From Nitrospira japonica (GTDB lineage Bacteria > Nitrospirota > Thermodesulfovibrionia > UBA6902): DNA of 64,000 nt. A model generated the notes under the pieces. That model was given only the letters and a program-made list of their open reading frames with translations, ran no database searches and was not told the DNA's origin. The translations under genes were made by a program, and so were the position numbers. Numbering within the stretch: position 1 is the first letter of the stretch; every line of letters starts with the position of its first letter. Of this stretch, positions 7,568-60,847 are shown piece by piece. Location of the stretch: NCBI GenBank assembly GCA_020723105.1, contig DYJL01000001.1, positions 62,001 through 126,000 of the forward strand, given 5' to 3'.

Positions 7568-7574
7568 GTAATAC
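7568..7574 (+). promoter_or_regulatory. GTAATAC box (half copy of the leader cassette)
   Basis: GTAATACAT preceded by CTCCAAAG, matching the left half of the leader cassettes elsewhere in the window. It lies 54 nt before the PKD-protein start. The right-hand AGTAGA box and terminator are missing; instead a short hairpin TTCATG...CATGAA (about 7591-7608) follows. Confidence 0.45.
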
Positions 7575-7628
7575 ATATTCACCATCTGCTTCATGAAGAA
7601 GCATGAAACTATTAAATCGGAGGTGTAT

Positions 7629-17500: not shown

Positions 17501-17507
17501 GTAATAC
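17501..17507 (+). promoter_or_regulatory. GTAATAC box before traL
   Basis: AGAAAGTAATACCT, 29 nt before the traL start, is a left-half copy of the dispersed leader cassette. The AGTAGA box and terminator are missing. Like the copy at 7568 it is followed within 20 nt by ATCTGCT. Confidence 0.45.
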
Positions 17508-17536
17508 CTCTATATCTGCTAAAAAAGGAGAATTAA

Positions 17537-24729: not shown

Positions 24730-24768
24730 GTAATACATATACAAGATTAATTTTCAGTAGATTACGAA
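24730..24768 (+). promoter_or_regulatory. Leader cassette copy A: GTAATAC box and AGTAGATTACGAA box
   Basis: GTAATAC at 24730-24736 is followed 19 nt later by AGTAGATTACGAA (24756-24768), with TTAATTTTC between, as in the other copies. Instead of a terminator it is followed by the large hairpin at 24833-24907, then AGGAGG and the 107-aa gene. Confidence 0.65.
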
Positions 24769-25609: not shown

Positions 25610-26593
25610 TTACAATTTTCCCATTGCATTCATTACATGCCTGCCGAATTCAAAATATCCCCTTGCATTTGCATGCTGCGGCTGGCTGACGGGATCGATC
25701 TTGACCTTCCCGAAAGTGTTAATTTTCAGGAATCGCACGCCTCCTCCTCCTGCAATAATAATATCTGCTTCGTCAGGGAGCTCCTCGATATAATTGCCTA
25801 CAAGCGACAATGCCTCGGTATTGTATGAATCAAGAATCTTTGATGTATCGAGAGTGAATTCCTTTCCGGCTATAGAAACCTTCTCTTCTAACAGTAGCCT
25901 TTCCACAGTCTCGTCGTTTTTAATGAAAGTTTTGTATGTAGAACAGAATTCTTTTTTAACCTGTTCATATATTTTTGAAACACCTAATTGGCGGCTTCTT
26001 GCAGAATTCTCCACATACTTTCCTTTAACAAAGAACAACGTATCCAATGTGTAGTATCCCACATCGATAACGGCAACTCTCCTGTTCAGATCATCAAGAT
26101 TACCGCTTCTGACATGTGAGAAGTAAATACCCGCGCCCTGCGGGATGAACTTTATGCGTTTCGGAAAGCTGATATCATTCTTATCTGATGTCTTCACTTT
26201 TAAGGAACGAATGAGAGAAATTAATTCAGCAGAATATTCATTGCTGTATTGCCCCGGCGGAAGCCCGAGAACAAGAATATCCGGGTCTTTGAGGGTTTTT
26301 GTAAGCGCATATGCAAGCACCGCGCAGTATGCATTTGAACCAACAAAGTCGGTCCTTCTCGTGTTTATCAGTCCTACGCCTTCCCTTAGCGCCGTTTCAC
26401 CGACAATGAAATTCTCATCGTTTATACTAATGACAGTCTGTTGTTCTGTGAATGTGGTCTTCGGGATAAACTTACTTACCGCAGTCGGGAAAAGATCGAA
26501 AATAAAGATATCCCGGTCATCGAAACTCTTTTTCGAATAATAGCTTTTTGTGTAACCATACCCGATGTCTACTCCTAAAATATTATTGTTCAT
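25610..26593 (-). CDS. parM: ParM/StbA-like plasmid segregation actin
   Basis: 327 residues with the actin/Hsp70 ATPase motifs: VDIGYGYTK (phosphate 1, residues 8-16), VIDVGYYTLDTLF (phosphate 2), and IIIAGGGGVRFL (adenosine motif, near residue 284). Its length fits ParM and other actin-like proteins (310-360). ParM filaments push DNA copies apart, with a ParR adaptor bound at a parC site; the small gene just upstream is the likely adaptor. A partition system suggests the element spends time as a replicating circle. GGAGG lies just before the ATG. Confidence 0.85.
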   Translation of the reverse strand: MNNNILGVDIGYGYTKSYYSKKSFDDRDIFIFDLFPTAVSKFIPKTTFTEQQTVISINDENFIVGETALREGVGLINTRRTDFVGSNAYCAVLAYALTKTLKDPDILVLGLPPGQYSNEYSAELISLIRSLKVKTSDKNDISFPKRIKFIPQGAGIYFSHVRSGNLDDLNRRVAVIDVGYYTLDTLFFVKGKYVENSARSRQLGVSKIYEQVKKEFCSTYKTFIKNDETVERLLLEEKVSIAGKEFTLDTSKILDSYNTEALSLVGNYIEELPDEADIIIAGGGGVRFLKINTFGKVKIDPVSQPQHANARGYFEFGRHVMNAMGKL

Positions 26594-26934: not shown

Positions 26935-27097
26935 GTTATCTCCGGAACGGCCTGTCTTTTTTATTGATGTATTACTTTTACGTGCCATGCCGTGGCCACA
27001 GAATCCGTCAGATCTGTGAGCAATGTCGAATTACGAAATTTATGGCCCAAGTTGTGGCCAGACGAATAAAAGCTGTGTATGGATTAAGAGCCGGGAG

Positions 27098-28980: not shown

Positions 28981-29058
28981 GTAATACACCCTCAACAGAT
29001 TTAATTTAAGTAGACCAACGAACCCTTTGAGATGCAATTTGTCTCAAGGGGTTTTTTT
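28981..29058 (+). promoter_or_regulatory. Leader cassette copy B with intrinsic terminator
   Basis: GTAATAC 28981-28987; AGTAGACCAACGAA 29009-29022, 21 nt apart; then a 10-bp stem CCCTTTGAGA (29023-29032) with TCTCAAGGGG (29042-29051) and seven Ts (29052-29058). ATTTCAAAG and AAAGGGGGTG follow, then ATG 29087. The terminator lies between boxes and gene. Confidence 0.75.
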
Positions 29059-29086
29059 ATTTCAAAGCAGAAAGGGGGTGAATAGG

Positions 29087-29467
29087 ATGCGAGATGAATT
29101 AAGTACAGAAGCTTTGGCCGCAAAGACGGCGCATACCCTGATTCAATTGCCGGAAGAGAGCCAGATAACGGTTATGAAGAAATGGTATGAGAACAGCGAC
29201 GAAGAAAAGAAGAAGAAGCTGCATTACATCAGCTACAAGTCTGCTTATCCTTCTGAGCGGACAAAGATAGAGAACTGGATGGAAGCGGTGTTCACCCGCA
29301 ACATGAAATTAATACCTAAAAAGGTTGCTCACATGTGCGTGAACTACTTTCGGATCAAAAAAAATATGCTGCCTCAATTTATCAGTCTGGCGCAGAAGGT
29401 GAAAAGGAGGATCATCTGCCGGGAGATCATGAGACGGAAACGGTCCGGCGGAAGCATGGGTGATTAG
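29087..29467 (+). CDS. Hypothetical protein (126 aa) behind leader copy B
   Basis: 126 residues from ATG 29087, AAAGGGGGTG about 8 nt upstream. Highly charged and basic toward the C-terminus (AQKVKRRIICREIMRRKRSGGS), mostly helical, with no recognised domain. Its setting (leader cassette, T4CP region next) suggests a DNA- or RNA-binding accessory of transfer, but this is inference. The structured region 29490-29582 follows 22 nt after the stop. Confidence 0.6.
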   Translation: MRDELSTEALAAKTAHTLIQLPEESQITVMKKWYENSDEEKKKKLHYISYKSAYPSERTKIENWMEAVFTRNMKLIPKKVAHMCVNYFRIKKNMLPQFISLAQKVKRRIICREIMRRKRSGGSMGD

Positions 29468-29489: not shown

Positions 29490-29590
29490 GAGGATACTGA
29501 CAGATGAGGGGACATGGCTGAAGTTAAGGTTTCTTTATGGGCTTTATAGGCAGGAAAACCTTAAAATCCTGTCAGTATCCTCAAATTTTT
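29490..29590 (+). ncRNA. Structured RNA candidate / long-stem terminator
   Basis: A 14-bp perfect outer stem, GAGGATACTGACAG (29490-29503) with CTGTCAGTATCCTC (29569-29582), encloses an inner 9-bp stem, TTAAGGTTT (29524-29532) with AAACCTTAA (29556-29564); AAATTTTTATT follows. The nested stems with a G-rich 20-nt left internal strand exceed an ordinary terminator. It could be a small RNA or an attenuator ahead of the coupling-protein operon. Confidence 0.6.
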
Positions 29591-29655: not shown

Positions 29656-29662
29656 GTAATAC
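29656..29662 (+). promoter_or_regulatory. GTAATAC box before the coupling-protein operon
   Basis: ATAAGTAATACAT, 6 nt before ATG 29669; left-half copy of the cassette. If it marks a promoter, the transcript would have almost no leader. Confidence 0.4.
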
Positions 29663-29668
29663 ATACCC

Positions 29669-30403
29669 ATGGCAAACAATGAGGAACAGGGATTATTAAT
29701 AATGACTGACAAAACGAACAAAAGCGCAAGACCCAAGAGTCTCATACAGGCAATAAGTGAAATAGAGCAGTTTTCCGTTGCCGAGATGCACTCGGAGCTT
29801 CCGGAAGGCTCGCTGCCTACGGAGGCAAATTTTTCCTTTTATGATGTAGGCATTAAGTCCAGCATCTTAAGCGGTTTTGTTATAGCCCTGACAACGCCTT
29901 TAATGATGGCTGCCGGTGACAAGCTCCTGCCGGTGTTTGGCGACAGGGAGCTTACGTTTTTTGACAGAATATTCTCCGTGCTTATAACGATTACCTTCCC
30001 TGTCTCATTCGCGCTTTTTATTTTCGTAATCCTGACGAAGTCCTATGCCGGCAATATAACGAGGAAGGCCATCAACAGCCTTGTAGGATCTATCAGCGCA
30101 GGAAATATTGGAATGGCTATCCTGATATCGCTTTTATATCACTACATAGCACTCATCTTTCTAAGTTCCGACAATGTCATCAGCGCTATCAGGCGGGTAA
30201 ACGGGATATTCTTTGTCCCGAGACTGAACATTGACTGGAACGTCATTTACTGGAGAATTATGGACTTCAAGGCCGTCCTTATACCGTCTTCGTATTTCAT
30301 AGCGTTTATAAATCTGCTCTTTGTCGGAATCGTGAGCCTGGCAGTTGTGATCGGCAGGCATAGAACAAAAGTGAGAAAGGAATTTTTAAGGGAATGGGAG
30401 TAA
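29669..30403 (+). CDS. Polytopic membrane protein in the coupling-protein operon
   Basis: 244 residues from ATG 29669 (ATG 29702 is an alternative; neither has a strong ribosome site). A soluble N-terminus of about 60 residues is followed by four or five transmembrane helices (ILSGFVIALTTPLMMAA; IFSVLITITFPVSFALFIFVIL; MAILISLLYHYIALIFL; SSYFIAFINLLFVGIVSLAVVI). No family is recognised. It begins the operon that includes a TraD/VirD4-like ATPase lacking its own membrane domain, so it may supply the membrane anchor in trans; this is inference. Confidence 0.7.
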   Translation: MANNEEQGLLIMTDKTNKSARPKSLIQAISEIEQFSVAEMHSELPEGSLPTEANFSFYDVGIKSSILSGFVIALTTPLMMAAGDKLLPVFGDRELTFFDRIFSVLITITFPVSFALFIFVILTKSYAGNITRKAINSLVGSISAGNIGMAILISLLYHYIALIFLSSDNVISAIRRVNGIFFVPRLNIDWNVIYWRIMDFKAVLIPSSYFIAFINLLFVGIVSLAVVIGRHRTKVRKEFLREWE

Positions 30404-30407
30404 AGCT

Positions 30408-30830
30408 ATGTATGTAATATTCGGTTCGCCAAAGATTGTTAAGACAATCACATTCATACTGTCGGGAAAGGGCTTTCTGGTAATGCCTACAAAATTAAAG
30501 GAATACGTAATTGTAAGGCGGGACCCCCGCAGGGATATACCGGAGAGCTTTCACGAGCAGATCAGGATTGAGGAATTCAATGAGAACTATTACACGTTCC
30601 TGAAGGGGGATGATGTGCTGAAAAACATCATTTCACCGGCAAAGCTTAAGTCCGGCGAGGTTGTGTGCATTATTGGCGGTCCTTACAAGGATTTCAAGGG
30701 GATAATTAAAACGGCAAATCCAAACAATACATACGTGGTTGAATTAAGTGTCTTCGACAAACCCGTGCGCGCGGTAGTCGATCATGAGCATCTGCAAAAA
30801 AAAGATTATACAATTCAGGAGGGGCGATGA
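30408..30830 (+). CDS. NusG-family-like KOW-domain protein (candidate antitermination factor)
   Basis: 140 residues; GGGAG lies 8 nt upstream of the ATG. Residues about 83-133 match the NusG/RfaH C-terminal KOW domain: SGEVVCIIGGPYKDFKGIIK, then VVELSVFDKPVRAVVDHEHL, close to the NusG pattern GdxVrVxdGPFadfxGxV...VsIFGRxTPVel. The first 75 residues (MYVIFGSPKIVKTITFILSGKGFLVMP) resemble a shortened NGN domain but lack its usual FPGYLFV motif. Specialised NusG paralogues (RfaH, ActX, LoaP) prevent termination in leader regions. Given the terminator-bearing leaders in this element, an antitermination role is attractive but unproven. It ends in an ATGA overlap with the T4CP gene. Confidence 0.6.
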   Translation: MYVIFGSPKIVKTITFILSGKGFLVMPTKLKEYVIVRRDPRRDIPESFHEQIRIEEFNENYYTFLKGDDVLKNIISPAKLKSGEVVCIIGGPYKDFKGIIKTANPNNTYVVELSVFDKPVRAVVDHEHLQKKDYTIQEGR

Positions 30831-32263
30831 GTATTACAGATAACCGGATGTCTCTCAGGAAACTTGAAGAGATCAGTAAAGAAGGTCGAACAGGCAAAAC
30901 GAATAAACTTTATCTTGGGAAAGCTGTCGATCTCGCCTCGCTTGCCGAGAGCGGCAATATGGATGTCAGGAAATTTCATCTGAGCAGCAATGACCGGGCG
31001 GGACATTTGGGCATATTGGGGACAACAAGAATAGGCAAGACAAGACTGCTTGAGCACCTTATTTCACAGGACATAAGGGCAGGGAACAACGTTATTGTGA
31101 TTGATCCCAAAGGGGATTCGGACCTGTTCTCCAAGATAATACAGGTGGCTGCCGAATCAGGCAGGCTTGATGAGATCATGCTGATAACTCCTATATACCC
31201 CGAATGTTCCTTGAAGATGGACCCGCTTGCATACTATTATATGCAGGATGAGCTGGTGGATCATGTGATCTCCGGCATTAAGGCGAAAGAAGAATATTTC
31301 ATCAATGTTGCAAGCGAGATAACCCAGGTCATCATTGCCGGGCTGATCGCGATGGCAAAGGCAAACGGCGAAAAACTGAAACTTAATTTTAATGACATAA
31401 AAATGAGGAGCACGCATCCCGCCCTTAAGAAGTTTTCAGCATCACTGGAGGCTTCCAAAAACAAATGTAATGCCGAGACTAAAGAAGCGATTAACGAGGT
31501 CATTGCAAACATTGAGCAGATCCTCGAATCTCCGGCAGACTTCTTTGCCAAGGTTTCGTCTTCTTTGCGTACAACCCTCACGGCCCTGACTTCATCCACA
31601 ACAGGACGCATAATCGGAAAGGCATACACGAATGAATTTGTAAAGAGGTTTGAGCAGGGCAAACGGGTTATTTTAGTGTGCAATACCGGCAACCTGCTTG
31701 CAAGAAGGACTGCTCATATCATTGGAAGGGTACTTGTCTCGATGATACAAAGCACGGTCGGGAGGTTTTTTGCCTCAGGCAGAAGGATCGATCCGTCGTT
31801 GTGCCTGTATATCGATGAAGGACACAATGTGCTTTATAAGGGAATACAGGAGCTTTTCAACAAGGCGGGGGGAGCCGGCGTATGGATCAACTTCTCCACA
31901 CAGAGCGTTGCGCAGATGGAAGAGGAAATAGGTCCCGAGGCCACACAGTCCATCATGGACAATATAAATACCTGGATATTCATGAGGGTCAATCATGATA
32001 AGACGGCAAAGCTTATTGAAGACATGTCTCCGTTAGCTAAAAAACGGGAACCGTATCTACATTTTGACGCCGGGGAGATACGGATATCGCTGAGAGAGAC
32101 AGAGGAGAGGCTGATACTGAAGGAAAGGGCGACAAGACTGAAGCCGAGGTGGTTTTATTTGAAGTCGCACGGGCATATATATAAGGGTTTTGTTCCTGAC
32201 GTCGAGCCCTCTTATATAAATATTGAGTTCCCGGTGATAAAGGTGGTGGATGAGGCATGTTAG
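30827..32263 (+). CDS. traD: VirD4/TraD-type coupling ATPase without N-terminal membrane domain
   Basis: 478 residues, start in ATGA overlap with the KOW gene and GGAGGGG upstream. Walker A at residues 63-72 (LGTTRIGKT), a following VIDPKGDSDL strand, Walker B LCLYIDEGHN (about 325-334), and WINFSTQSVAQME with IMDNINTWIFMRV, the T4CP signature. F and SXT TraD have two N-terminal helices before Walker A; here only 60 soluble residues precede it. The ATPase recruits relaxase-DNA to the T4SS. Its membrane anchor may come from the flanking small membrane proteins. Confidence 0.88.
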   Translation: MSITDNRMSLRKLEEISKEGRTGKTNKLYLGKAVDLASLAESGNMDVRKFHLSSNDRAGHLGILGTTRIGKTRLLEHLISQDIRAGNNVIVIDPKGDSDLFSKIIQVAAESGRLDEIMLITPIYPECSLKMDPLAYYYMQDELVDHVISGIKAKEEYFINVASEITQVIIAGLIAMAKANGEKLKLNFNDIKMRSTHPALKKFSASLEASKNKCNAETKEAINEVIANIEQILESPADFFAKVSSSLRTTLTALTSSTTGRIIGKAYTNEFVKRFEQGKRVILVCNTGNLLARRTAHIIGRVLVSMIQSTVGRFFASGRRIDPSLCLYIDEGHNVLYKGIQELFNKAGGAGVWINFSTQSVAQMEEEIGPEATQSIMDNINTWIFMRVNHDKTAKLIEDMSPLAKKREPYLHFDAGEIRISLRETEERLILKERATRLKPRWFYLKSHGHIYKGFVPDVEPSYINIEFPVIKVVDEAC

Positions 32264-33244: not shown

Positions 33245-34519
33245 ATGATGATTCTATTAGTAACTTCTTTTGTTATTTGTATATGCATCGCAGGGCTTAT
33301 CCTTTTACGTCCGGCAAAAGAGGAAAAAAGGATTACTATCTCTCTATCAGAGTTGTCCACCATATGGACTCAGTACAACGGTACCTATGAATTGATTAAT
33401 TCAACGGAATCAAAGGACGTAATAGCTCCTCTTTATGATGCGAAAAAGGAGACGGAAATCGAAACGGCAAAGGAATCCGGAGTCCCGGCTGCCGATTCCG
33501 ACATTTCTTCCCCTGCAGTAGGTCCGATTAAATTATTTTGGGAAACCTGCATAAATCCGTATCATCGGGTTATTCAACGGCAGGGAGTTGCGGACGTAGT
33601 GAAAACCCTTCTTGATATCATGGAAAAATACGGCAATTGTCCATCCGTTTCAACAAACAGCAAGGATACTGAATCAGCCGACCTGTTTTCAGTAAGAGAC
33701 AATCTCGCACAGGTTTCGCTGAAAGATCACACTTACACCGTTGCCTACAATCTCGTTGAAGAGGTCAAAAAGGCATATATTGACTACGAAAATCATATCC
33801 CGAAAGCAATCATCACCGGCCTTGCTCACGACCTCGGCAAGATACCGGAATTCAGGGACTCGCGGGCATACAACACATCTGAACATCATCTGATCAGCGC
33901 CCTGAAGCTTAACGAGATTTTGGCGGGCAAAGAACTTTTCTGGCTGAAACACGTTGTCAAAGCTGTCGAAGAGCACCATATACATTCAAATGACGAGTTC
34001 ACTATTCTGCTGAAAAAGGCAGACAAGGCGGCGCGTCAGACGGAATTACTGACATTTACCAAAGAGTACAGCATCATGAAATTTGAGGATTGGTTTAATG
34101 TTGAGACCTTCTATAAAGAGATAGAACCCCGGATAAATTACTCGCAGGTATACGGCAAATGGGATGCTTTTACATTCAGGGGCATAATTTATTGCAAGCC
34201 TGATTTTGTCTATGACACCATCAAGAAGCTTTGCAGGGAAGCAAAGGCGCTGGATCTTTCATTCATCTATCAGTCTGAAAAGGAAAATGCCTTACGCAAG
34301 ACGGTAAATAAACTGAGGGAAGCCGAACTGGTGCCAGGACTACTGGCCCCAAATCAGATTGCAAGGAAATTTGAGATAAAACAGAAGACGGGCAATTCTT
34401 TTAAGAACATATTGATACCGCTGAAGATAGTCAGTTTTTATGACATGGAAAAAATTGAAGCGAGAAAAATGGATTTTATGCAGGTAATAGAGAGGGTGAC
34501 GCCGGTGGGGAAGGGGTAG
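33245..34519 (+). CDS. HD-domain protein, possible MOBH-relaxase-related
   Basis: 424 residues from ATG 33245 (AAGGAG 9 nt upstream). One N-terminal transmembrane helix (LVTSFVICICIAGLILL), a variable linker (residues 50-130), then a full HD phosphohydrolase set: KDHTYTVAY, GLAHDLGK, EHHLISAL, VEEHH and KKADKAAR. The C-terminal 120 residues include a helical domain ending VIERVTPVGKG. HD domains occur in MOBH (TraI_2) relaxases of SXT/R27, and no other relaxase is visible beside the coupling ATPase, so it is the best relaxase candidate, with low confidence. A diverged copy of its 3' end recurs at 36643-36771. Confidence 0.6.
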   Translation: MMILLVTSFVICICIAGLILLRPAKEEKRITISLSELSTIWTQYNGTYELINSTESKDVIAPLYDAKKETEIETAKESGVPAADSDISSPAVGPIKLFWETCINPYHRVIQRQGVADVVKTLLDIMEKYGNCPSVSTNSKDTESADLFSVRDNLAQVSLKDHTYTVAYNLVEEVKKAYIDYENHIPKAIITGLAHDLGKIPEFRDSRAYNTSEHHLISALKLNEILAGKELFWLKHVVKAVEEHHIHSNDEFTILLKKADKAARQTELLTFTKEYSIMKFEDWFNVETFYKEIEPRINYSQVYGKWDAFTFRGIIYCKPDFVYDTIKKLCREAKALDLSFIYQSEKENALRKTVNKLREAELVPGLLAPNQIARKFEIKQKTGNSFKNILIPLKIVSFYDMEKIEARKMDFMQVIERVTPVGKG

Positions 34520-35785: not shown

Positions 35786-36598
35786 TCATGGTTTCTGTTT
35801 CATGATAACAGCTCCATCAAGCTTGCGATGTATAAAGGAAATCATAGCGAAGATATCTATAGCATCCTGTTCCGTCATGGGCCAAGATACTTTCGGCGCG
35901 TGAGCTGTTGGGTTTCGCACTGCGCCAAACATACCCACTAAGATATTGCTAAAACCTTTTTGTTCGCTCATGTCAGTTTCCGTCGTCAGATTATTAATGG
36001 CGATCACGGGTGCTTTTGTCGAAAAAGCTGTATTGACAAGTTCGGCTCCATCGGAAGTAAGACCGGACAAGCTTCGAATTCGATCTGCAACACCCTTTAT
36101 TGATTCTAATACGGCGTGAAAATAGTTGTCTTCAAGAAGCTCCGCACGACAATACTTGAATATTTCTGAGTGTTTCCCTCTTTCCTCGAGCTTTGACTTC
36201 AACGATCCGGCCCTCGCACGGGCATCTTTCAGCGTCGTTGCTTTCTTTGTCCTTATCACCTTCCCATCTTCGCGAACACCATAGCCAGAAAATGATAGAA
36301 CAACATTCAGCTCGTTTCTCATCCATTCAAATTTCTCACGGTCTCTTGAGAATTTCACTGGGTCAAGAGCTCGATTGATGAACATAATTAAATGATTGCC
36401 GACTTGATATGTATTCTGCGCACCCACGAGGGCGTTAAAAAGACGTTTCCATTTAGTCATATTCGGATCGACATCTTGTACCTTGCAGTCCTGTAGCAGA
36501 TAACCTATCTCGGAACCACTGAGGCCTCGTTCAGTATCGGCAAGGACACGACATGCAGCTTCTAATTTTTGTGCAGTGAAGGGTGGAATTCGTTCCAT
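35786..36598 (-). CDS. TIGR02391/Hypoth_Ymh family protein
   Basis: 270 residues. The C-terminal half matches the TIGR02391 (Ymh) domain: AVLESIKGVADRIRSLSGL, AFSTKAPVIAINN, GFSNILVGMFGAVRNPTAHAP, ending with a AIDIFAMISFIHRKLDG helix. The RNPTAH motif resembles the Rx4-6H site of HEPN ribonucleases, and such proteins are common in abortive-infection settings; an RNase role is inference. Encoded alone on the minus strand. Confidence 0.75.
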   Translation of the reverse strand: MERIPPFTAQKLEAACRVLADTERGLSGSEIGYLLQDCKVQDVDPNMTKWKRLFNALVGAQNTYQVGNHLIMFINRALDPVKFSRDREKFEWMRNELNVVLSFSGYGVREDGKVIRTKKATTLKDARARAGSLKSKLEERGKHSEIFKYCRAELLEDNYFHAVLESIKGVADRIRSLSGLTSDGAELVNTAFSTKAPVIAINNLTTETDMSEQKGFSNILVGMFGAVRNPTAHAPKVSWPMTEQDAIDIFAMISFIHRKLDGAVIMKQKP

Positions 36599-36642
36599 TT
36601 TCTATGTGCTAATATGAAATTACACTTTTTAAAAGCATAAAT

Positions 36643-36771
36643 GTGAACAATTTTAGAATACCACTGAATAATGAATATGGGCAAATTAAGGCAAGGAAAA
36701 TGGATTTTATGCAGGTGATTGAGAGTGACATCAATGGAGAGAGGTGGACAAATATTCTCCCTTTCACATAA
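36643..36771 (+). pseudogene. Remnant of the 3' end of an HD-gene paralogue
   Basis: The + frame reads NNFRIPLNNEYGQIKARK, MDFMQVIESD and stops at 36771. It aligns with the C-terminus of the HD protein (NSFKNILIPLK...KIEARKMDFMQVIER). DNA identity is highest at AAAATGGATTTTATGCAGGT, present in both copies (34468-34487 and 36697-36716 regions). No start or upstream part of a gene is present. It marks the right side of a 2.2-kb segment inserted at the 3' end of the HD gene, or a recombination scar. Confidence 0.55.
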
Positions 36772-36784
36772 TTAATATGTGGGA

Positions 36785-37216
36785 TTAAAACCACCTCTTT
36801 CTCAACCTCGACCAGAAATTATGTTTATTCCCCAATTTGTTATGTGTTTCTATGTTATGAAATAGGTTTTTTTTATCGTAATATTTCTTTTTATTCAAAT
36901 AATCATGACGTCTCCCGGTATTGATTTTGTCTTCTGACCATTTCTTAGCCCATTCAACCCTGTTATTTTCTATCCAATAATGAGATTTACAAGCAAAATT
37001 CCAGTTTCCAATAGAAGGATAAAGTGAAATTGACTCACCATCAAATGTCAATTTCCAATCTGTCGGTGAAAGTGGAGTGATAACTTCATTTCCACACCCG
37101 CAACAACATTTATGAACAACTGTTCCGAACGTGACTGAAACGTAGATCGTCCCGTCTTTTAAATGGTTGGGGATATATTCCACGAATTCATGCTTGAGAA
37201 CCATTTTCGTTTTCAT
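36785..37216 (-). CDS. DUF6527 metal-binding protein of ubiquitin-like operon
   Basis: 143 residues, overlapping the E1 gene stop by 4 nt. HKCCCGCGNEVITPLSPTDWKLTF, then SIGNWNFACKSHYWI, is the DUF6527 signature: a Cys cluster and a Cys/His pair, probably a zinc site. DUF6527 proteins accompany bacterial multi-ubiquitin/E1 operons. The exact biochemical job is not known to me. Last gene of the operon. Confidence 0.8.
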   Translation of the reverse strand: MKTKMVLKHEFVEYIPNHLKDGTIYVSVTFGTVVHKCCCGCGNEVITPLSPTDWKLTFDGESISLYPSIGNWNFACKSHYWIENNRVEWAKKWSEDKINTGRRHDYLNKKKYYDKKNLFHNIETHNKLGNKHNFWSRLRKRWF

Positions 37217-38394
37217 GACAGATCGTCACCCGTTAACATATTTACATTTAACGTATACGTACTGTGATGTTCGTGTTCACAATCCTGATAAAAGCCACAT
37301 AATTTTTTCCATTTAATTACAGCCAATGCAGCGTTGAGCGCATTAAGGTCGGCTATCTGAATATTTCGAGAGTAATCATCATTGCCGTCTCCATCTGAAA
37401 AAGAAATTCTGTTCTTGCCTCTCACATGTTCTCTTTTCTTTTCGGTGCTTGTGGTAACCCTAAGTATTCCGATCAGCGCTTCATCGACAATCTCTACTCC
37501 CATGCCTACGTCTATGAAAGATATTCCTAATTCTTCCAACTTATCGATAATTACTTCTTTCACAGTTCCCTTATCAAGGCACATGAAGACAAAATCTACT
37601 ACCCGCAATTCATCGATATTTGAAGAAGTTATATTGAATTCATGAGGAATAATCTTCTTGCGCATTTTTGAATATAACTCGCTGAAGTAAACCACTTTCG
37701 ATTGTGCCTTTTTCAATTCATCCAGTGACGGTGCGCCTGGAGATCTAAACGCGTTATGCTGGAAAAACTTGTCTCCATCAAAAAGATGAATTTCCTGCGT
37801 CGGTGTTTTAGCAACCAAGTCTAAAACATAAGAACCGGTACCGCCCAAACCGACTATTCCAACCTTACCGATTTTTAACTTGTCGGTTATGATAGCAATT
37901 CCAGACCTACTCGAAGAAGTATCGATGTAATTGAATACTGATTCTTCATCATCGGATTCAATAAGCTTGAAGGTTTTTGTGGTTACAGAACTGTCAAGTG
38001 ATTGGGCAGGTGCTGAGAGAATATCGACATATCTGGTCATCTTCTCGAAATAGTCCGAATATCCATTTGCAGGCTTATTAGAGAAGGAATGGTTAATCAC
38101 CAGATCATCAGTAAGTGGTTGCTGATGGCTGTTATGTCTAATTTGTTCTATTGCAGATCCATCCTTGTGGCATGGATAGTCACCTTTAAAAAAAACAACG
38201 TGAGTATTGGGCTTTGTTGTTTTATTTCCGGACAACGTCAGTTCTGATACAAGTGTTCCGGCCTTTATCTCTTTATTGGAGTTCACATAGGGGACGCCAT
38301 TTATCAAAAGATACCCAGCCTTAATTTCAACTTCAAAGCCCTCATCTCGTAGTCTTTTCAGGTCAGGACTATGATTTATCAGTTGCTGTGACAT
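37213..38394 (-). CDS. E2-E1 fusion (DUF6791-ThiF) of ubiquitin-like conjugation system
   Basis: 393 residues; start lies 26 nt inside the Ubl gene. The N-terminal ~110 residues resemble the E2-like DUF6791 domain (INGVPYVNSNKEIKAGTLVSEL; VVFFKGDYPCHKDG with a candidate conjugating Cys). Residues about 170-390 are a ThiF/E1 adenylation domain: VGIVGLGGTGSYVLDL (nucleotide loop), IHLFDGDKFFQHNAFRSPG (Asp, Asn, Arg of the ATP site), DFVFMCLDKG. It would adenylate and then transfer the neighbouring Ubl. Such operons are regarded as anti-phage or stress systems. Confidence 0.83.
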   Translation of the reverse strand: MSQQLINHSPDLKRLRDEGFEVEIKAGYLLINGVPYVNSNKEIKAGTLVSELTLSGNKTTKPNTHVVFFKGDYPCHKDGSAIEQIRHNSHQQPLTDDLVINHSFSNKPANGYSDYFEKMTRYVDILSAPAQSLDSSVTTKTFKLIESDDEESVFNYIDTSSSRSGIAIITDKLKIGKVGIVGLGGTGSYVLDLVAKTPTQEIHLFDGDKFFQHNAFRSPGAPSLDELKKAQSKVVYFSELYSKMRKKIIPHEFNITSSNIDELRVVDFVFMCLDKGTVKEVIIDKLEELGISFIDVGMGVEIVDEALIGILRVTTSTEKKREHVRGKNRISFSDGDGNDDYSRNIQIADLNALNAALAVIKWKKLCGFYQDCEHEHHSTYTLNVNMLTGDDLS

Positions 38395-38647
38395 TGAATA
38401 TCATCCCATTCTTAATTTTAACTGTGTCGCCATCTACTATAGTCCCTTCGGGCTTATTGCCTTCACCCCTCTTATAGGTTACCGTATAAATGGTGTTTGG
38501 ATTTGAGGTTGTACCAAAAGCTAATTCAACAACCTGACTGAAGGATATTTCTTTGCCTGTTACTACCTTTTCCCTGCCATTAACAATGATTGTAAATTCT
38601 TTATTGTGACCCGGTGCTTCATGTTTATGTTCTACTGAATTGTCCAT
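38369..38647 (-). CDS. Multi-ubiquitin-family Ubl with a single domain
   Basis: 92 residues, AAGGAG 8 nt upstream. After a 15-residue polar tail the beta-grasp domain reads KEFTIIVNGREKVVTGKEISFSQVVELAFG, then YTVTYKRGEGNKPEGTIVDGDTVKIKNGMIFNV. This is the multi-ubiquitin (Multi_ubiq) pattern. Only one repeat is present, and the C-terminus is ATDKS with no Gly-Gly. It overlaps the E2-E1 gene. Confidence 0.83.
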   Translation of the reverse strand: MDNSVEHKHEAPGHNKEFTIIVNGREKVVTGKEISFSQVVELAFGTTSNPNTIYTVTYKRGEGNKPEGTIVDGDTVKIKNGMIFNVTATDKS

Positions 38648-38674
38648 AATGTTGCTCCTTTCCTAAATAGGTTA

Positions 38675-38848
38675 TTATTTTTCTTTCCGGACGCCTTTAA
38701 AGGGGTCCTTGTTGGCCTTTTGATCCATAAATTGGCCATCTTCTGTATTGCGCTTTGTCCAGTTTCCAGTTTTGGGGTTGTAAGTTTGAGAGCGATCTTT
38801 TACCGCCCCTTGCCTGTGCCCATCACCGTAAGGTCTGTTCTTTGCCAT
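38675..38848 (-). CDS. Small basic protein (57 aa) heading the ubiquitin-like operon
   Basis: A 57-codon gene starting at ATG 38848, with a near-perfect AGGAGGTG ribosome site, that reads MAKNRPYGDGHRQGAVKDRS and later NPKTGNWTKRN, TEDGQFMDQK, FKGVRKEK. It has the ordered, repetitive-polar make-up of a conserved small protein I have seen in accessory regions; the function is unknown. Strongly basic, likely nucleic-acid or protein binding. It ends 27 nt before the Ubl start and is the first gene of this minus-strand operon. Confidence 0.7.
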   Translation of the reverse strand: MAKNRPYGDGHRQGAVKDRSQTYNPKTGNWTKRNTEDGQFMDQKANKDPFKGVRKEK

Positions 38849-38911
38849 ATCTTTTTCACCTCCTTTTTTTAATCTACGAGCAATGACTGTTCCGTTATGT
38901 GATAGAGCATA

Positions 38912-38955
38912 TCACAACTGTGACAATACAGTCAAGTGGATAATCACATCTGTGA
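38912..38955. promoter_or_regulatory. Paired operators TCACA-N2-TGTGA
   Basis: Two identical-architecture palindromes, TCACAACTGTGA (38912-38923) and TCACATCTGTGA (38944-38955), are centred 32 bp apart (about three helical turns) between the divergent Ubl operon and XRE-ImmA genes. A third palindrome, GTGATA...TATCAC (38899-38915), overlaps the first. They are the likely binding sites of the XRE regulator at 39005. Confidence 0.7.
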
Positions 38956-38965
38956 AATATATTTG

Positions 38966-38994
38966 TTGATTCTGTTAATTTTATTTTGTATACT
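38966..38994 (+). promoter_or_regulatory. Sigma70-type promoter for a leaderless XRE mRNA
   Basis: TTGATT (38966-38971), 17-nt spacer, TATACT (38989-38994). The ATG at 39005 lies 10 nt after the -10 box and has no ribosome site, so transcription probably starts at or next to the ATG. Confidence 0.6.
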
Positions 38995-39004
38995 TATAGC
39001 TCTA

Positions 39005-39340
39005 ATGGATACAAGTGTCGGCAAACGGATTAAAGAAAAACGTGACGAAGCCAGTTGGAGTCAGACCGAACTTGCTAAAAGGGCGGGGATAACACCATCT
39101 GCACTCAGCCAGATTGAAAGTGGTGAAAGATTTCCGTCAACCGTAGTGGTCCATAAACTTGCGAAAGCACTATCTACTTCTGTAGATTATCTTCTAGGGA
39201 ATAAGACTGAAGAGGATCTTTCTGATCTTCTTCAAGATGAGAAGATTGAAATTTTATTTAGGACGTACAAAGACCTATCCAAGAAAGATCGTGAATTTAT
39301 CCTGAGGCAGATTGAAGCTCTTAAGCCTCACAAGAAATAA
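39005..39340 (+). CDS. XRE-family regulator of the ubiquitin-like operon
   Basis: 111 residues from ATG 39005. An in-frame GTG at 38936 would run through the operators and promoter and is rejected. Cro/C1 helix-turn-helix (GKRIKEKRDEASWSQTELAKRAG, then ITPSALSQIESGERFPS) followed by VDYLLGNKTEEDL, a standard short XRE repressor tail. It pairs with the ImmA/IrrE-type protease gene 5 nt downstream, an arrangement in which the protease relieves repression by cutting the regulator. Divergent from the Ubl operon. Confidence 0.82.
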   Translation: MDTSVGKRIKEKRDEASWSQTELAKRAGITPSALSQIESGERFPSTVVVHKLAKALSTSVDYLLGNKTEEDLSDLLQDEKIEILFRTYKDLSKKDREFILRQIEALKPHKK

Positions 39341-39345
39341 ATAGC

Positions 39346-40194
39346 GTGCGTCCTGAGGACTATGCAAGAGAAATACTTATCGATTTAGGTATCACATCCT
39401 TCCCAATCAATCCGTCTGTTGTTACTAAAGAATTTGATATTGAGGTTGCGGAGACAGATGCTGACAGTTATGATGGGTTTCTACTGAGAAGTAATTCGGG
39501 CACAAAAATATTTATTAACAAGAATATCCCATCAATAGGGCGAAAAAATTTTACACTTGCTCATGAAATTGGGCATTATTGTATCCCTGCACATCGAGGG
39601 AATTATAAATGTATTACTCGATATTTGAATCCATTCACAAATAATCCTCAGGTTGAGATAGAGGCGAATAAGTTTGCCTCAGAATTGTTACTACCAGAAA
39701 ATCTTCTTAAACCAATACTCCATTCATATAAACCTGATTTTGAAAGCATAAATGAACTATCGGAAGATTGTGGTACAAGCTTGACAGCGACTGCGATTAA
39801 GTTTGCATCATTATCAGACGATTGTTGTGTTCTGATAGCATCTTCAGATAACAAGATAAAATGGTTTCAAAAATCTCCATCATTCCCGTATGAATATCGT
39901 ATTGATGTAGGTAAATCAATTTCCTACGGGACATTGACAGCATCGTATTCTTTAGATGGGGCAATTAAAGAACCAGACACTCAACAGGTTCATGCCACAT
40001 ACTGGTTTACGGGGAGAGGAATAAATAACACTACCACTCTTATTGAAAGCTGTGTGCCAATGGTATATTACGGAGTAGTTCTCACAATACTGTGGTTCCC
40101 AGAGCCTCCTTTTGATATTAACGGTTCCAGTGATGATAATGACGAATACAGGTATGAGGAAAGCTCTTGGCGCTGGCGTGATCCCGAAGAATAG
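39346..40194 (+). CDS. ImmA/IrrE-family zinc metallopeptidase
   Basis: 282 residues, GTG start 5 nt after the XRE stop. Residues about 62-75 hold TLAHEIGHYC (HExxH) with the third ligand region EIEANKFASELLLPE, the ImmA/IrrE core. The C-terminal 120 residues are beta-rich and acidic and may sense a signal. ImmA (ICEBs1) and IrrE cut XRE repressors after DNA damage or stress; here it probably de-represses the ubiquitin-like operon. Convergent with the BREX-like cassette. Confidence 0.85.
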   Translation: MRPEDYAREILIDLGITSFPINPSVVTKEFDIEVAETDADSYDGFLLRSNSGTKIFINKNIPSIGRKNFTLAHEIGHYCIPAHRGNYKCITRYLNPFTNNPQVEIEANKFASELLLPENLLKPILHSYKPDFESINELSEDCGTSLTATAIKFASLSDDCCVLIASSDNKIKWFQKSPSFPYEYRIDVGKSISYGTLTASYSLDGAIKEPDTQQVHATYWFTGRGINNTTTLIESCVPMVYYGVVLTILWFPEPPFDINGSSDDNDEYRYEESSWRWRDPEE

Positions 40195-40329
40195 CTGTTT
40201 TTTTAGTATGCCCACACTGAACTGATTAGGAAAAGCAGTCTTACGTTGTAAGACATTAGGATTCTTACTTGTTTTTGGTGCAGGTGGTTTGCCCTTATCC
40301 ACTGTCCCTTGATTAATACCTATTCACCT

Positions 40330-43119
40330 TCAATTCAGACTCATCAACCCAACACAATTCGCTCTGACATTTACTATCCCCTCATAATCGGAACGGAGGG
40401 TTGCTTCAAAGTTACCGACGTGCATGGCAAGATGCTCCCGAAGGTCATTCATCGTTGAAGCATCAATTTTCTCTTCCCATCCACTTGCACAAAGAAGCTG
40501 TAAGTCATTGAAGGCTTCACTTCCTGAGAGGAAGAAAATTTTATAGAGTTCCCGTTTTGTCCCATCGTCAAAGTCCATTGAGAAAAGATACCGTGCCGAA
40601 GAGACAGGCTGTACACTCTTATTGTATATATTCAGAACATTACCTGAAACAGCTTCGCTTCTGTAATAATCGATTAAGGCATCTATCAACGGATGCCCAA
40701 TTCCCATCAATTCAATTCCCTTTTTCCTTGTTGCAATCTTTCGTGAAAATGTAGCATTTTCATATCGTGAAGAAACTCCCGAATATTTCTTGAGCGCCGG
40801 TGGAACTACAATGCTTATTATCTCTCCCGAAGGGATAAAGCTTCCGCCAAGGCTGATGATCGCTTTTTCACAAAAAAGCTTCAGGTCATCAAGTGTATAC
40901 CTGCCTTTGAGCTTTATATAGTTTTCGAGATTGAATGCTGTCAAGTCTTGTGTCAGTTGTCTCAACGCATTACTTGCTTCTTTTGCCTGTCTGATTGCTT
41001 CGAGGATTTCCTGTTCGGTTCTTTGATAATCCCTGTTGACCAGCGCTTCTTTGTATAATTCGTTATAGTTTAAAGATGATCCAAGGAAACCGAGAATCTC
41101 TGCTCTGAAATCTTCTGTAACCTCTCCTGTCAGATCGTCAACTTTGCCTATAGTCCTGGCTATTTCAAAAAGTTTCTGCTCCAGTATTGAATAAACATTT
41201 TCTTCTATTGTTCCTTCTGCAACAAGGTTATAAACCTGTGCCGTTTCTGTCTGCCCATATCTGTGAATCCGGCCTATCCTCTGTTCCACTGCCATAGGAT
41301 TCCACGGAAGGTCATAGTTGAAAAGTATCCTGCATACCTGAAGATTGATACCCTCACCGCCGGCAGATGTACATAAAAGGAACTGCGCCCCGTTTTCATT
41401 CCAAAAGGATTCGCAGGAGGCTATCTTCTCCTCAAGAGGCCCGCCCTTTATTATTGCAATCTTTTCCTGTCCGTAATATTTGCCTAATTCCTCATGCAGG
41501 AAATATACGGTCTCAAGATATTGGGTGAATATAATCATCTTCTCTCTTTCATTCACCCGGCGTATCTGTTCAATCGCCCTAATAAGCGTATCAAACTTTC
41601 TGTCCGGTCCATCCTCTATAAGATCTATCAGTTCTTTCACTTTCCGGTCTTCATTCGGGATATTTGCCTCTGCTTCTATGATGTCATCACTCACTTCAAG
41701 AGCATCCAAGGCCCAGTTGGTTATTTCCTCTTCAAATTTAGGGCGTTTTTTTAAACGCTGTTTTAACTGGGCAATATATGCATCTGCATCGGTGTAATCA
41801 ATCTTTCCTCTTTCATATGCCAGCAGGTCAACAACTATTTTTCGCATTTCCTCCTGGTACTTCATAATCTGGGTAGATATATCGGCTCTCGTTATTGAAC
41901 CGTGCAGGCCGCTCTCAAGAGCCATCTGCCTTCTCGCATAAATGGCTATCAATCTTCTTCTCAAGGACTGTTTGATCGCCCTGGGGCTTGAAGACATAAT
42001 CTTCTGGAAAGTTGCCATGACAAAGCCGACCGCCCGCTGCTGCTTTGTCGTCTTATCCTGTCCGACACCGGCAGCGTTGTATCCTTCTTTCAGGTATTCA
42101 GTGAGTTTTTCATAAAACCGCTGTTCCCTCATTGAAAGGCTGAATTTCTGTGAATGCACATTCCGTTTCATGAATATCGGGTTGCCGTCTACATCGGTCA
42201 CCTCTCTTTTGTTTCTTCTGAACATTACCCTTCCAAGCAATCCCCTGTGGTCTTCCATTGCCTCCGGATTTTCAAATAACTGGTCGTCAAGGAGCTGTAT
42301 CAGGGACCAGAACTGAAAGGCGTCGCCCTGATGAGGGGTCGCTGAAAGGAAGAGGAAATCACGGGTAATGCCCTTGAGCTTTTCTGCCAGTCTGTAGTTC
42401 TGAGTAACATCAATCTTCTTGCCGTATCTCTTACGGGTAAGGTGGTGCGCTTCATCAAAAATAATGGCATCCCATTCCGGCCCCTTCATGAGTTTTTCGA
42501 GGCGTGAGGATTTTTTTATTGTATCAATGGAGACGATAACAAGATTATGTTTTTCCCAGGCGTGTGAACTTGTGTCAGTAAAGTCCTGCCCAAATATATC
42601 AAAATACATCCTGAAACAGTCTTTAAGCTCATTTTGCCAGTTTGAGGTAAGACCTGCTGGACAGATAATCAATATCCTCTTTGCCTCGCCCCTTGAGTGC
42701 AGCTCTCTGATAATCATTCCGGTCTCGATGGTCTTTCCGAGACCGACTTCATCAGCGATCAGGAATCTCCTTCTCCTCGCCTCAACTACGTTGTGAGTGA
42801 GCAGAATCTGATGAGGGAGCAGGTCTGTCTTGCTGTTGGAAAGCTCTCCACCGGAATTTTCAAGTGGAAACTGATAGGCAAGCTGTTTGAGAAAAAAATC
42901 CATCGGCCTGTCAGACAATCCCTTTTCAAATCTCTGAAAGATATCATCAACCGGTTCTATAAGCGATTCAGGAAAGGTCTCAAGGATTCTTTTACCATTT
43001 TTCTCAAAAGCTACGTCTATCTTATATTCTCCGCGCTCCTCAGAGACACGGATAACTTCCCCGGAACCGAGATCAGGACGATATTTAACCTTTACCTTTG
43101 AATTTTCTTTAACAGGCAT
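40330..43119 (-). CDS. SNF2/HepA-like helicase of BREX type 3-like cassette
   Basis: 929 residues. A beta-barrel-like N-terminal segment (residues 1-50, VKYRPDLGSGEVIRV) precedes a SNF2 motor: DEVGLGKTIETGM (Walker A), IICPAGLTSNWQ, IIFDEAHH (motif II), LFLSATPHQGD (III), IIFTQYLETV, and QRIGRIHRYGQTE (VI). It resembles the helicases called BrxHII in BREX type 3 and DrmD in DISARM. It is the last gene of the minus-strand cassette, 9 nt after the 142-residue gene. Expected to translocate on duplex DNA in phage defence. Confidence 0.83.
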   Translation of the reverse strand: MPVKENSKVKVKYRPDLGSGEVIRVSEERGEYKIDVAFEKNGKRILETFPESLIEPVDDIFQRFEKGLSDRPMDFFLKQLAYQFPLENSGGELSNSKTDLLPHQILLTHNVVEARRRRFLIADEVGLGKTIETGMIIRELHSRGEAKRILIICPAGLTSNWQNELKDCFRMYFDIFGQDFTDTSSHAWEKHNLVIVSIDTIKKSSRLEKLMKGPEWDAIIFDEAHHLTRKRYGKKIDVTQNYRLAEKLKGITRDFLFLSATPHQGDAFQFWSLIQLLDDQLFENPEAMEDHRGLLGRVMFRRNKREVTDVDGNPIFMKRNVHSQKFSLSMREQRFYEKLTEYLKEGYNAAGVGQDKTTKQQRAVGFVMATFQKIMSSSPRAIKQSLRRRLIAIYARRQMALESGLHGSITRADISTQIMKYQEEMRKIVVDLLAYERGKIDYTDADAYIAQLKQRLKKRPKFEEEITNWALDALEVSDDIIEAEANIPNEDRKVKELIDLIEDGPDRKFDTLIRAIEQIRRVNEREKMIIFTQYLETVYFLHEELGKYYGQEKIAIIKGGPLEEKIASCESFWNENGAQFLLCTSAGGEGINLQVCRILFNYDLPWNPMAVEQRIGRIHRYGQTETAQVYNLVAEGTIEENVYSILEQKLFEIARTIGKVDDLTGEVTEDFRAEILGFLGSSLNYNELYKEALVNRDYQRTEQEILEAIRQAKEASNALRQLTQDLTAFNLENYIKLKGRYTLDDLKLFCEKAIISLGGSFIPSGEIISIVVPPALKKYSGVSSRYENATFSRKIATRKKGIELMGIGHPLIDALIDYYRSEAVSGNVLNIYNKSVQPVSSARYLFSMDFDDGTKRELYKIFFLSGSEAFNDLQLLCASGWEEKIDASTMNDLREHLAMHVGNFEATLRSDYEGIVNVRANCVGLMSLN

Positions 43120-43128
43120 CTTAATCCT

Positions 43129-43557
43129 TTAAGTGGACAAATTAAATCCGGTTGTATAAACATTGGCTCCCCTGACATCATTGCGAATGGTCGAGCCGAA
43201 TATAAAAGCCAAGGGGAGCTTCTCACCCCGGTATTCAAGAAAGAGCGAATCGCCGGGAACAAGCCTGCCTTTAGAGACAATCTGAACTTGTATTTTTTTC
43301 TTTTCAAGGACGGAGGCGGCTGACTGAAGGATATTATGGATTTTTCGTGCCATGGTTAGTCTGTCTTCGGCTTTTGTCATATAGAGCACTTCATCTATGC
43401 CTACAACCATAAATGAAGAAAGACGGCTTATGCCCTCGGCATCAGATTTTATTTCCCGCAGAAAATCCAGGAACCCAATTTTGATATCATTAGGGTCGAT
43501 ACCGTCATCTTTATAAGGCTTCAGGTATTTCTGTTCAAATATTTCATAACCCTTCAT
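43129..43557 (-). CDS. 142-aa protein of the BREX-like cassette, unassigned
   Basis: 142 residues between the DUF1156 methyltransferase (3-nt gap) and the helicase. A helical N-terminal half (YEIFEQKYLKPYKDDGIDPND; MVVGIDEVLYMTKAED) and a beta-rich C-terminal half (KKIQVQIVSKGRLVPGDSLFLEYRGEKLPLAFIFG, by position). No P-loop, so it is not the BrxF ATPase expected in type 3 BREX. No family recognised. Its fixed place between the methyltransferase and helicase argues that it is a cassette component. Confidence 0.65.
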   Translation of the reverse strand: MKGYEIFEQKYLKPYKDDGIDPNDIKIGFLDFLREIKSDAEGISRLSSFMVVGIDEVLYMTKAEDRLTMARKIHNILQSAASVLEKKKIQVQIVSKGRLVPGDSLFLEYRGEKLPLAFIFGSTIRNDVRGANVYTTGFNLST

Positions 43558-43560
43558 AGA

Positions 43561-46515: not shown

Positions 46516-46516
46516 A

Positions 46517-47491
46517 CTATACCTCCAGCACAACCCACGGCGTCAGCATCTCCATTAATGAAAGGCCGCCGTGTTTGTATAGTTTTGAAGCTGCTTCACC
46601 GGTGGAACGGGTTTTTACACGACCCTTTAACAGCGCAACACGCCTTGTCTCGTCTATTATGATGTCATCGCTTGCTGGATGATTGGGTTTCTCGGGAAGA
46701 AAGGCGTATCTGTCATTACCGAAATAGTCATTCAGCTCTCGCATCTCCTGACCGCTTCTCGGAAAATCCATGCCTGTGCCAAAGAAGATATACCCGTGAT
46801 CACTTGTTATGATTATCCGTGTTTTTCCTTTTATCTGCTGTACCGTATTCATCCACAGAGTTTCAAAACGCATATGGATATTTTCAAAATGGTTCTCAAA
46901 TCTTGCCCCGCTGTCTTTATATGTATTGTCAGGGAATGCAGACCAGACAAGGAGCGCTGAATTTTCATCTGACAAGCTTATCCTTTGAGTAGGATCATTT
47001 GTGTAAAAAGCGGAAATGCCTTTCTCTTTCAATTCTTTTCTTCCTGGAAGTTGGGAAGGCCCGATGCGTCCGCAATTCATTTCTCTTTCGATATAATCAA
47101 TTGTTTCGCAAGGGATGGCAGCTTGTGAGCAATCAACGCCGTTGATCTTAAAGCCGGATTTTTGAGATAGTTTTTGTATTATTGGAAGTTCTCTCAGGGA
47201 AAGACCGTCAAAGACCACTACGGCAGTTTTACTGTCTGCCAGTACCTTTAAGAGATTCTTGTCAGGATCATTCATTGACAATAATTCACGATAAATCCTG
47301 TCCGCTGAAGCGGCTATTAAGGTCTCAAATTTATTAACAGCGTTTTCACCCTGTTTGAGATATTCTATGTGATTAAGTGATGCGTAATGAGCCGGGCTCC
47401 ATACTTCCTCTACAAGCCAATTTTTAATCCACGTAAGCCTGTTCCCGGGATTGGTTAGGTCTTCGAGTATTGGAAGTGTCAGATTTTCCAA
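46517..47491 (-). CDS. pglZ: PglZ-domain phosphatase-like protein, short form
   Basis: 324 residues, starting right at the DUF499 stop. The alkaline-phosphatase-superfamily core is intact: VVVFDGLSLREL (metal Asp near residue 94), IIITSDHGYIF (Asp-His-Gly), and YKHGGLSLMEMLTPWV (late His). BREX PglZ proteins are usually 650-900 residues; this one is little more than the core domain. PglZ is the shared hallmark of BREX/Pgl systems and supports a defence role for the cassette. Confidence 0.87.
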   Translation of the reverse strand: MENLTLPILEDLTNPGNRLTWIKNWLVEEVWSPAHYASLNHIEYLKQGENAVNKFETLIAASADRIYRELLSMNDPDKNLLKVLADSKTAVVVFDGLSLRELPIIQKLSQKSGFKINGVDCSQAAIPCETIDYIEREMNCGRIGPSQLPGRKELKEKGISAFYTNDPTQRISLSDENSALLVWSAFPDNTYKDSGARFENHFENIHMRFETLWMNTVQQIKGKTRIIITSDHGYIFFGTGMDFPRSGQEMRELNDYFGNDRYAFLPEKPNHPASDDIIIDETRRVALLKGRVKTRSTGEAASKLYKHGGLSLMEMLTPWVVLEV

Positions 47492-52402: not shown

Positions 52403-52478
52403 GTAATACCTCCTTAACCATTAACTTTAAGTAGACCACGAAAAGGGGATACGAGCATTGTCTTGTATGCCCTTTTTT
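52403..52478 (+). promoter_or_regulatory. Leader cassette copy E with intrinsic terminator
   Basis: GTAATAC 52403-52409; AGTAGACCACGAA 52430-52442, 20 nt apart, with TTAACTTTA between; stem GGGATAC (52446-52452) with GTATGCCC (52465-52472, one bulge) and six Ts (52473-52478). ATTTTTTCAAAGGGAGG then leads to ATG 52504. Confidence 0.75.
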
Positions 52479-53399: not shown

Positions 53400-53479
53400 G
53401 TAATATTAAAATAATAGACTTAATTATAAGTAGACAACGAACTGGCATATTCGGCTTTTGCTCGGATATGCCTTTTTTT
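53400..53479 (+). promoter_or_regulatory. Leader cassette copy F with intrinsic terminator
   Basis: GTAATAT 53400-53406; AGTAGACAACGAA 53429-53441, 22 nt apart; stem GGCATAT (53444-53450) with ATATGCC (53466-53472) and seven Ts (53473-53479). TATTTTGAAAGGAGG follows. Confidence 0.75.
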
Positions 53480-53500
53480 ATTTTGAAAGGAGGAAATCTC

Positions 53501-53581
53501 ATGAAAATAAGGAAAGGAGCGAACATCTGCTATGCAAACAGTGTTAGACAGAAAAAAGATATCCCTTCGGGAATTTCTTGA
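53501..53581 (+). CDS. Possible 26-aa leader peptide overlapping the helicase start
   Basis: ATG 53501 lies 7 nt after AAAGGAGG (53486-53493), a better site than that of the helicase start at 53532. The frame (MKIRKGANICYANS...) ends at 53581, inside the helicase gene in another frame. Its translation could control or couple to helicase translation. Confidence 0.4.
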   Translation: MKIRKGANICYANSVRQKKDIPSGIS

Positions 53582-58144: not shown

Positions 58145-58169
58145 TTTCAAATCAAAGGAGGTATCAAAA

Positions 58170-60843: not shown

Positions 60844-60847
60844 TAAT

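Follow-up and report, generated by a model that had tools for sequence, protein, structure and literature searches.

A NusG/Spt5-like KOW protein of an F-type conjugative element and its candidate targets, a set of repeated box-terminator leader units

Does a NusG-like protein encoded by a conjugative element act on the transcription terminators that stand in the leaders of the same element? This question is raised by a gene in a 64,000-nt stretch of DNA (the window; positions 62001-126000 of contig C57 of genome G000). A preliminary description had proposed that the gene product and a cis-acting box before the leader terminators form a complete circuit. We find that the gene is a genuine open reading frame for a NusG/Spt5-like KOW protein (Table 1). 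It begins 4 nt downstream of the end of the preceding gene, and its stop codon overlaps the start codon of TraD (ATGA). A 14-nt perfect inverted repeat, GAGGATACTGACAG ... CTGTCAGTATCCTC, with a 65-nt loop and followed by a T-rich stretch, sits at 29490-29582, between the gene for a 126-aa protein and the KOW operon.

Table 1. Features of the window discussed in the text (positions count from the first nucleotide of the window).
Position	Strand	Feature
7568-7581	+	Left half-box alone, predicted promoter
17501-17514	+	Left half-box alone, predicted promoter
24730-24768	+	Full box (putative promoter and leader element); long leader in which the criterion used finds no strong terminator
26962-26975	-	Left half-box alone, predicted promoter
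28981-29062	+	Full box (28981-29022) and intrinsic terminator, T-tract from about 29052
29087-29467	+	126-aa basic protein of the W..I..WME...TPY.VA....NYFR...KMKP...LARKVK.R family; full box in its own leader
29656-29669	+	Left half-box, predicted -10 promoter heading the KOW-TraD operon, TSS at the A of the ATG at 29669, no attenuator
29669-30403	+	Predicted membrane protein, 244 aa, whose gene opens the KOW-TraD operon; kept close to TraD in relatives
30408-30830	+	NusG/Spt5-like protein, 140 aa; residues 1-70 NGN-like, residues 76-131 (approximately) KOW domain
30827-32263	+	TraD-type coupling protein (SXT_TraD / TraG-D_C), start overlapping the KOW stop codon
52403-52478	+	Full box (52403-52442) and intrinsic terminator to 52478, upstream of the ArdC-like gene
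52504-53370	+	ArdC-type anti-restriction protein (ArdcN and metallopeptidase)
53400-53484	+	Full box (53400-53441) and intrinsic terminator, upstream of the SNF2-type helicase gene
53532-55733	+	SNF2-type helicase gene, box-preceded, as is its G396 homologue
58064-58147	+	Full box (58064-58104) and intrinsic terminator, upstream of the gene at 58170-58721

The C-terminal domain of the protein (residues 72-131) is, on sequence grounds, certainly a KOW domain of the NusG/Spt5 type. Residues 83-109 match the Pfam KOW model above its cut-off (E=3.4e-5), and a profile-profile comparison aligns the family's C-terminal half with the C-domains of 28 NusGs over 57 columns (E=3e-13), which bears out what had been claimed for this domain. 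Its predicted structure superimposes closely on NusG structures (VIA Z 9.9, 55-57 residues, rmsd 1.0-1.2). Models of NusG, Spt5, UpxY, and RfaH match the protein at E values from 1e-5 to 1e-3, mostly through residues 72-131, with scores of 14-23 bits against curated full-length cut-offs (nusG, Spt5, RfaH, and UpxY) of 70-150 bits. A profile built from five homologues detects NusG and Spt5 among structure chains at E=1e-9. A collinear full-length profile alignment of the family with NusG was set aside, its score being driven by the KOW half.

The N-terminal half is predicted to be NGN-like in topology. It is shortened, as had been noticed, to about 70 aa, and it matches NGN only weakly by sequence (E=0.02-0.04). 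An AlphaFold2 model of the full-length protein, made from four sequences (pLDDT 77), combines a KOW barrel with a small a/b domain at the N-terminus. Structural comparison had been proposed as a check on the NusG assignment, and an unrelated fold was not obtained: Foldseek places archaeal Spt5 at the top (E=1.7e-6), followed by NusG and RfaH, all in whole-length alignments. Predicted by itself (pLDDT 83), the N-half has the order b-a-b-b-a-b-a, which is the topology of NGN domains. It aligns with the NGN domain of Methanocaldococcus jannaschii at Z 5.6 (64 residues, rmsd 3.0), but unrelated ferredoxin-like domains score equally or higher (UreE, Z 6.6); NGN and such folds are tied in the VIA list, with no decisive fold match. 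We therefore use the term NGN-like. The FPGYLFV motif had been described as lacking, which is only partly right: a degenerate counterpart is present, with the sequence LKEYVIV in the window protein and LPDYLFV or MPEYLIT in its relatives. It aligns with FYPGYILIEM of the host NusG, and the tyrosine of this GYL-like motif is conserved in five of the six family members. The host has its housekeeping nusG on contig C53, besides the element-encoded protein. A second full-length NusG paralogue of the host, UpxY/RfaH-like and with an FPGYLFI motif, lies away from the element (C88:53133, L002).

Six members of the protein family were found, all of them on F-type conjugative elements, or on contigs that are fragments of such elements, from Nitrospirota and “Deltaproteobacteria”. 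Two further members came from a phylum search of 396 genomes (G166 and G052), a public genome scan labelled one as a Nitrospirae MAG and added two “Deltaproteobacteria” MAGs, and a class search added G432. No further member was found in 395 genomes from the phylum of G396, and no relatives were found in plasmid records (tblastn) or viral contigs. The surroundings of the gene are those of an F-type transfer system (TraU, TraN, TraH, TraG_N, and TrbC). The best explanation is that the KOW gene is part of the core transfer region shared by a family of such elements. Gene absences among the relatives are weak evidence, since most relatives are metagenome-assembled fragments. This applies to G394, G410, G443, and G154, whose element DNA lies on short or edge contigs, so that absence of the KOW gene there carries little weight.

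The KOW gene adjoins TraD in G000, G396, G397, and G432. This adjacency and the overlap of the two genes would also suit a factor for assembly or translation within the TraD operon, with the KOW domain binding a protein or the ribosome and playing no part in termination; ribosomal proteins also have KOW domains. However, the G052 gene lies about 43 kb from TraD, next to an actin-like gene, and the arrangement of an NGN-like and a KOW domain points to RNA polymerase, which makes a role confined to the TraD operon quite improbable. The window also encodes an actin-like (ALP_N/MreB-like) segregation protein (25610-26593, minus strand), conserved in the elements of G052, G394, G396, and G087.

The element carries a repeated leader unit in which a conserved box precedes an intrinsic terminator. 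Inspection by eye revealed a motif, AAAAGTAATACNTA, that is present 15 times in the window, where 2.3 occurrences are expected. Its extended form is GTAATA-N(17-25)-AGTAG-N(4-8)-CGAA, and the conserved order of the unit is GTAATAY-N5-YA, TTTCAGTAG-N4-8-CGAA, intrinsic terminator, RBS, and gene. Ten full boxes lie on contig C57, five of them in the window, and none was found in the G000 genome outside this contig. G052 has nine, G396 eight, G397 four, and G166 one, with several in G410 and G443; reversed-sequence controls for G000, G052, and G396 give 2, 0, and 1 matches. The preliminary description had named four leader terminators in the window, and all four are strong and follow a conserved box (28981, 52403, 53400, and 58064), to which the box at 24730 adds a fifth.

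Terminators are strongly enriched behind the boxes. Across related elements, the window's included, there are about 46 full-box units, of which 32 have a strong intrinsic terminator within 70 nt past the box, compared with 54 of 782 boxless gene starts (Fisher p=7e-24, a value that overstates independence because some sites come from the close relatives G396/G410/G419 and G087/G194). Among shuffled windows, the figure is 5/460. T-tracts mostly fall 26-33 nt after CGAA, and 37 of 49 box matches have a terminator of their own within 60 nt. Among the genes that follow are those for ArdC, SNF2-type helicase, JAB/RadC-like, Toprim primase-like, ParB-like, SSB, sliding-clamp-like, and methylase proteins, names that were assigned by reading the sequences where no Pfam search was run. 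Most single pattern matches of the phylum search were rejected as chance, being without the YA at -1/+1, terminator, or element context. The box-like sites of G128, G209, and G306, which have neither terminator nor element genes, were excluded from the statistics, and viral contigs gave only chance-like matches.

Other gene groups share the window with these units. Prok_Ub, DUF2016, JAB, and ThiF-type genes occupy 58753-62288 and 37213-38394; the segment 58753-61474 resembles the PRTRC cassette annotated on the Pelobacter plasmid pPRO1, which carries a related TraD. A defence-like island on the minus strand (35786-50116) contains an HmaA/DrmD/BrxH-like SNF2 helicase, a DUF1156/HmaB-like methylase, PglZ-like and DUF499/HmaC-like ATPase genes, and a PD-Lambda-3_B match. 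A 43-nt direct repeat (34452-34494 and 36683-36725, 86% identical) has one copy near the end of an HD-domain gene and the other 2.2 kb downstream.

The left half of the box is probably a -10 promoter of the element, complete with its start site. When the sites are aligned on GTAATA, Y stands at offset 12 in 46/46 and A at offset 13 in 45/46, positions that were not part of the search pattern. The spacing from GTAATA to YA is that of a -10 hexamer (TAATAY) and an initiating A. No -35 element is conserved upstream, and an ordinary -35/-10 promoter is accordingly not assumed. The promoter reading rests on several genes that begin exactly at the predicted +1: eight in the scanned element regions, including the gene that opens the KOW operon and TraD of G052, and likewise TraD of G166. 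A tally of the gaps at such leaderless starts has its maximum at gap 7 (eight matches); gap 8 comes close with six, and the tally thus supports, rather than proves, this reading. The mRNAs of such genes are likely to be leaderless. At three sites (G052 C1:164623, minus strand; G166 C13:2332, plus strand; and 29656 in the window), the start codon falls on the predicted start site of a GTAATA promoter, and in two of these elements the gene is TraD.

The two halves of the box appear to be separate modules. This is suggested by the 126-aa gene of G396, G397, and G410, in whose leaders the halves are parted by inserts with short inverted repeats. If the left half is a promoter, then the right half, TTTCAGTAG-N4-8-CGAA, is a putative leader element directly upstream of an attenuator. 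The cis box of the preliminary description thus survives as a conserved sequence that precedes the terminators, but its left part looks like a promoter and not like an antitermination site.

Two further readings of the units were considered. The units might be Frpo-like ssDNA promoters, active on the incoming strand, with the hairpin as part of the promoter. Their content of ArdC, SSB, methylase, and ParB genes fits leading regions (PMC11541004), and all units of G000, G396, and G397 C83 share one orientation. However, the hairpin of the aligned units lies downstream of the putative -10 and excludes it, the G052 units occur in both orientations, and left half-boxes with no hairpin also head genes, some of which start exactly at +1. 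We regard ssDNA promoters as very unlikely. Alternatively, the leader might act by itself, as a put- or EAR-like antiterminator RNA or as an attenuator with a fixed leak. The box is indeed only a few nt from the terminator in most units, and some G052 boxes have no strong terminator. Yet the conserved stretch is short, with sequence and spacing varying beyond GTAATA, AGTAG, and CGAA; the leaders have no match in Rfam, even in permissive mode; and the terminator sequences vary so freely that no common alternative pairing is apparent. A self-acting leader is therefore unlikely.

We propose that the KOW protein is a compact, two-domain elongation factor of the NusG/Spt5 type that the conjugative element supplies. 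Its NGN-like half would most likely bind the host RNA polymerase, and termination on element transcripts would be altered. The most plausible targets are the promoter-leader-attenuator units of the element itself. There, a -10-only promoter (GTAATAY-N5-YA) would start a short leader with TTTCAGTAG-N4-8-CGAA directly before the intrinsic terminator. The KOW factor would be recruited there, unaided or together with another protein of the element (the 126-aa product, for instance), permitting read-through into the establishment genes. Action of the KOW protein at the leader element is plausible; the proposal as a whole is our leading candidate and stops somewhat short of being probable.

Co-occurrence is consistent with this proposal. 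Boxes are present in five of the six genomes that bear the KOW gene, the exception being G432, where a search found no box and the gene lies on a contig of 5 kb. Neither gene nor box is present in three plasmids that have a related TraD and were examined whole or in part. Conversely, G087 and G194 each have one box, and no KOW homologue was found in them. Co-occurrence is also weak evidence for a functional link, because box and gene are linked through the element. The KOW operon is headed by the promoter half without an attenuator, which is what one would expect if the factor has to be made ahead of the attenuated genes. The presence of a box for nearly every such terminator counts against a processive KOW factor, which would not need that. 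A more specific version has an archaeal-Spt5-sized NusG factor recruited locally at each attenuator by TTTCAGTAG-N4-8-CGAA, with one recruitment site per terminator, switching on a dispersed establishment regulon of anti-restriction, SSB, primase, partition, and methylase genes; this version is doubtful.

The strongest competitor is the 126-aa protein, which may itself be the cognate regulator of the box units. It would bind the leader element or the promoter and, through control of its own leader, would give transient expression of establishment genes after transfer, while the KOW protein would serve elsewhere, for example on the tra/TraD transcript. Its gene has a full box in its own leader at 8 of 10 loci (G000, G052, G394, G087, G194, G396, G397, and G410 C74; the G396 box has a long middle). 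Of the 17 genomes queried that bear a box or the KOW gene, 9 have the protein, as do 0 of 13 comparators. G087 and G194 combine it with the box but have no KOW gene. An autoregulated factor would show such a pattern, and the control of establishment promoters on p576 is a precedent (PMC8708921). However, a box in its leader is also expected of an ordinary target gene, and no copy is present in G443 (four box matches) or G154, where the contigs are fragments. Family searches gave no match indicating function. Control by the 126-aa protein is a real but lesser possibility, and the two proteins could work together. We place the KOW protein modestly ahead, since it is the sole candidate with a recognised link to transcription elongation. 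Thus, a NusG-type protein and repeated box-terminator leaders do share one element, as the circuit first proposed would have it, but the box is followed more closely by the 126-aa protein than by the KOW protein.

NusG paralogues encoded by plasmids, ActX for example, were described decades ago, yet no target has been demonstrated for them. In the present case, the element that carries the KOW gene also carries a candidate target that is compact, repeated, and easy to test. In addition, the box units mark out what appears to be an establishment regulon of conjugative elements from phyla that have received little study.

The KOW protein has the domain order of archaeal Spt5 (TIGR00405) and bacterial NusG, with an NGN-like domain followed by a single KOW. 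These two are its best full-length fold matches, and Spt5 is of almost equal length. Unlike them, it is encoded by an element, its N-half is at the edge of sequence recognition, and its scores are far under the curated cut-offs for both. RfaH, ActX, UpxY, and LoaP are likewise NusG-type proteins linked to mobile elements or operons, and ActX is encoded within pilus operons of plasmids. Antitermination has been proposed for the specialised NusG paralogues that lie in plasmid tra operons, ActX among them (PMC7593976; PMC7819879). The KOW protein is shorter than these paralogues (about 140 aa, compared with 160-180), has no NGN family match, and matches the RfaH, UpxY, and LoaP models through its KOW domain. 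Its candidate targets differ from theirs in being numerous short leaders that stand apart from one another and have a terminator apiece.

The closest parallels to the leader units differ from them in construction. Like the present element, pLS20 is a conjugative element with terminators and an apparently element-specific antitermination arrangement, conAn (PMC8955417). However, conAn is a single promoter-proximal system that is processive over more than 20 terminators within one operon, whereas here there is one box per terminator, and the box matches with a terminator of their own (37/49) do not fit single-site control. EGeRS1 and EGeRS2 (PMC8708921) and Frpo (PMC11541004) resemble the box units in that one regulatory sequence is repeated before several establishment genes, including ardC. 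Yet EGeRS1 consists of 400-600 bp of inverted repeats, while the box unit is about 40 nt and an intrinsic terminator; EGeRS2 is a repressor-controlled promoter; and Frpo is a ssDNA hairpin promoter, whereas the putative -10 of the box unit lies outside the terminator hairpin. We found no description of this arrangement in the literature searched, which was mostly outside subscription journals. One promoter-leader-terminator unit per target operon, with an Spt5-sized factor in the transfer operon, is different from ActX-type paralogues, conAn, and Frpo alike. If the link between the KOW protein and the box holds, antitermination would here be applied gene by gene and not once per operon.
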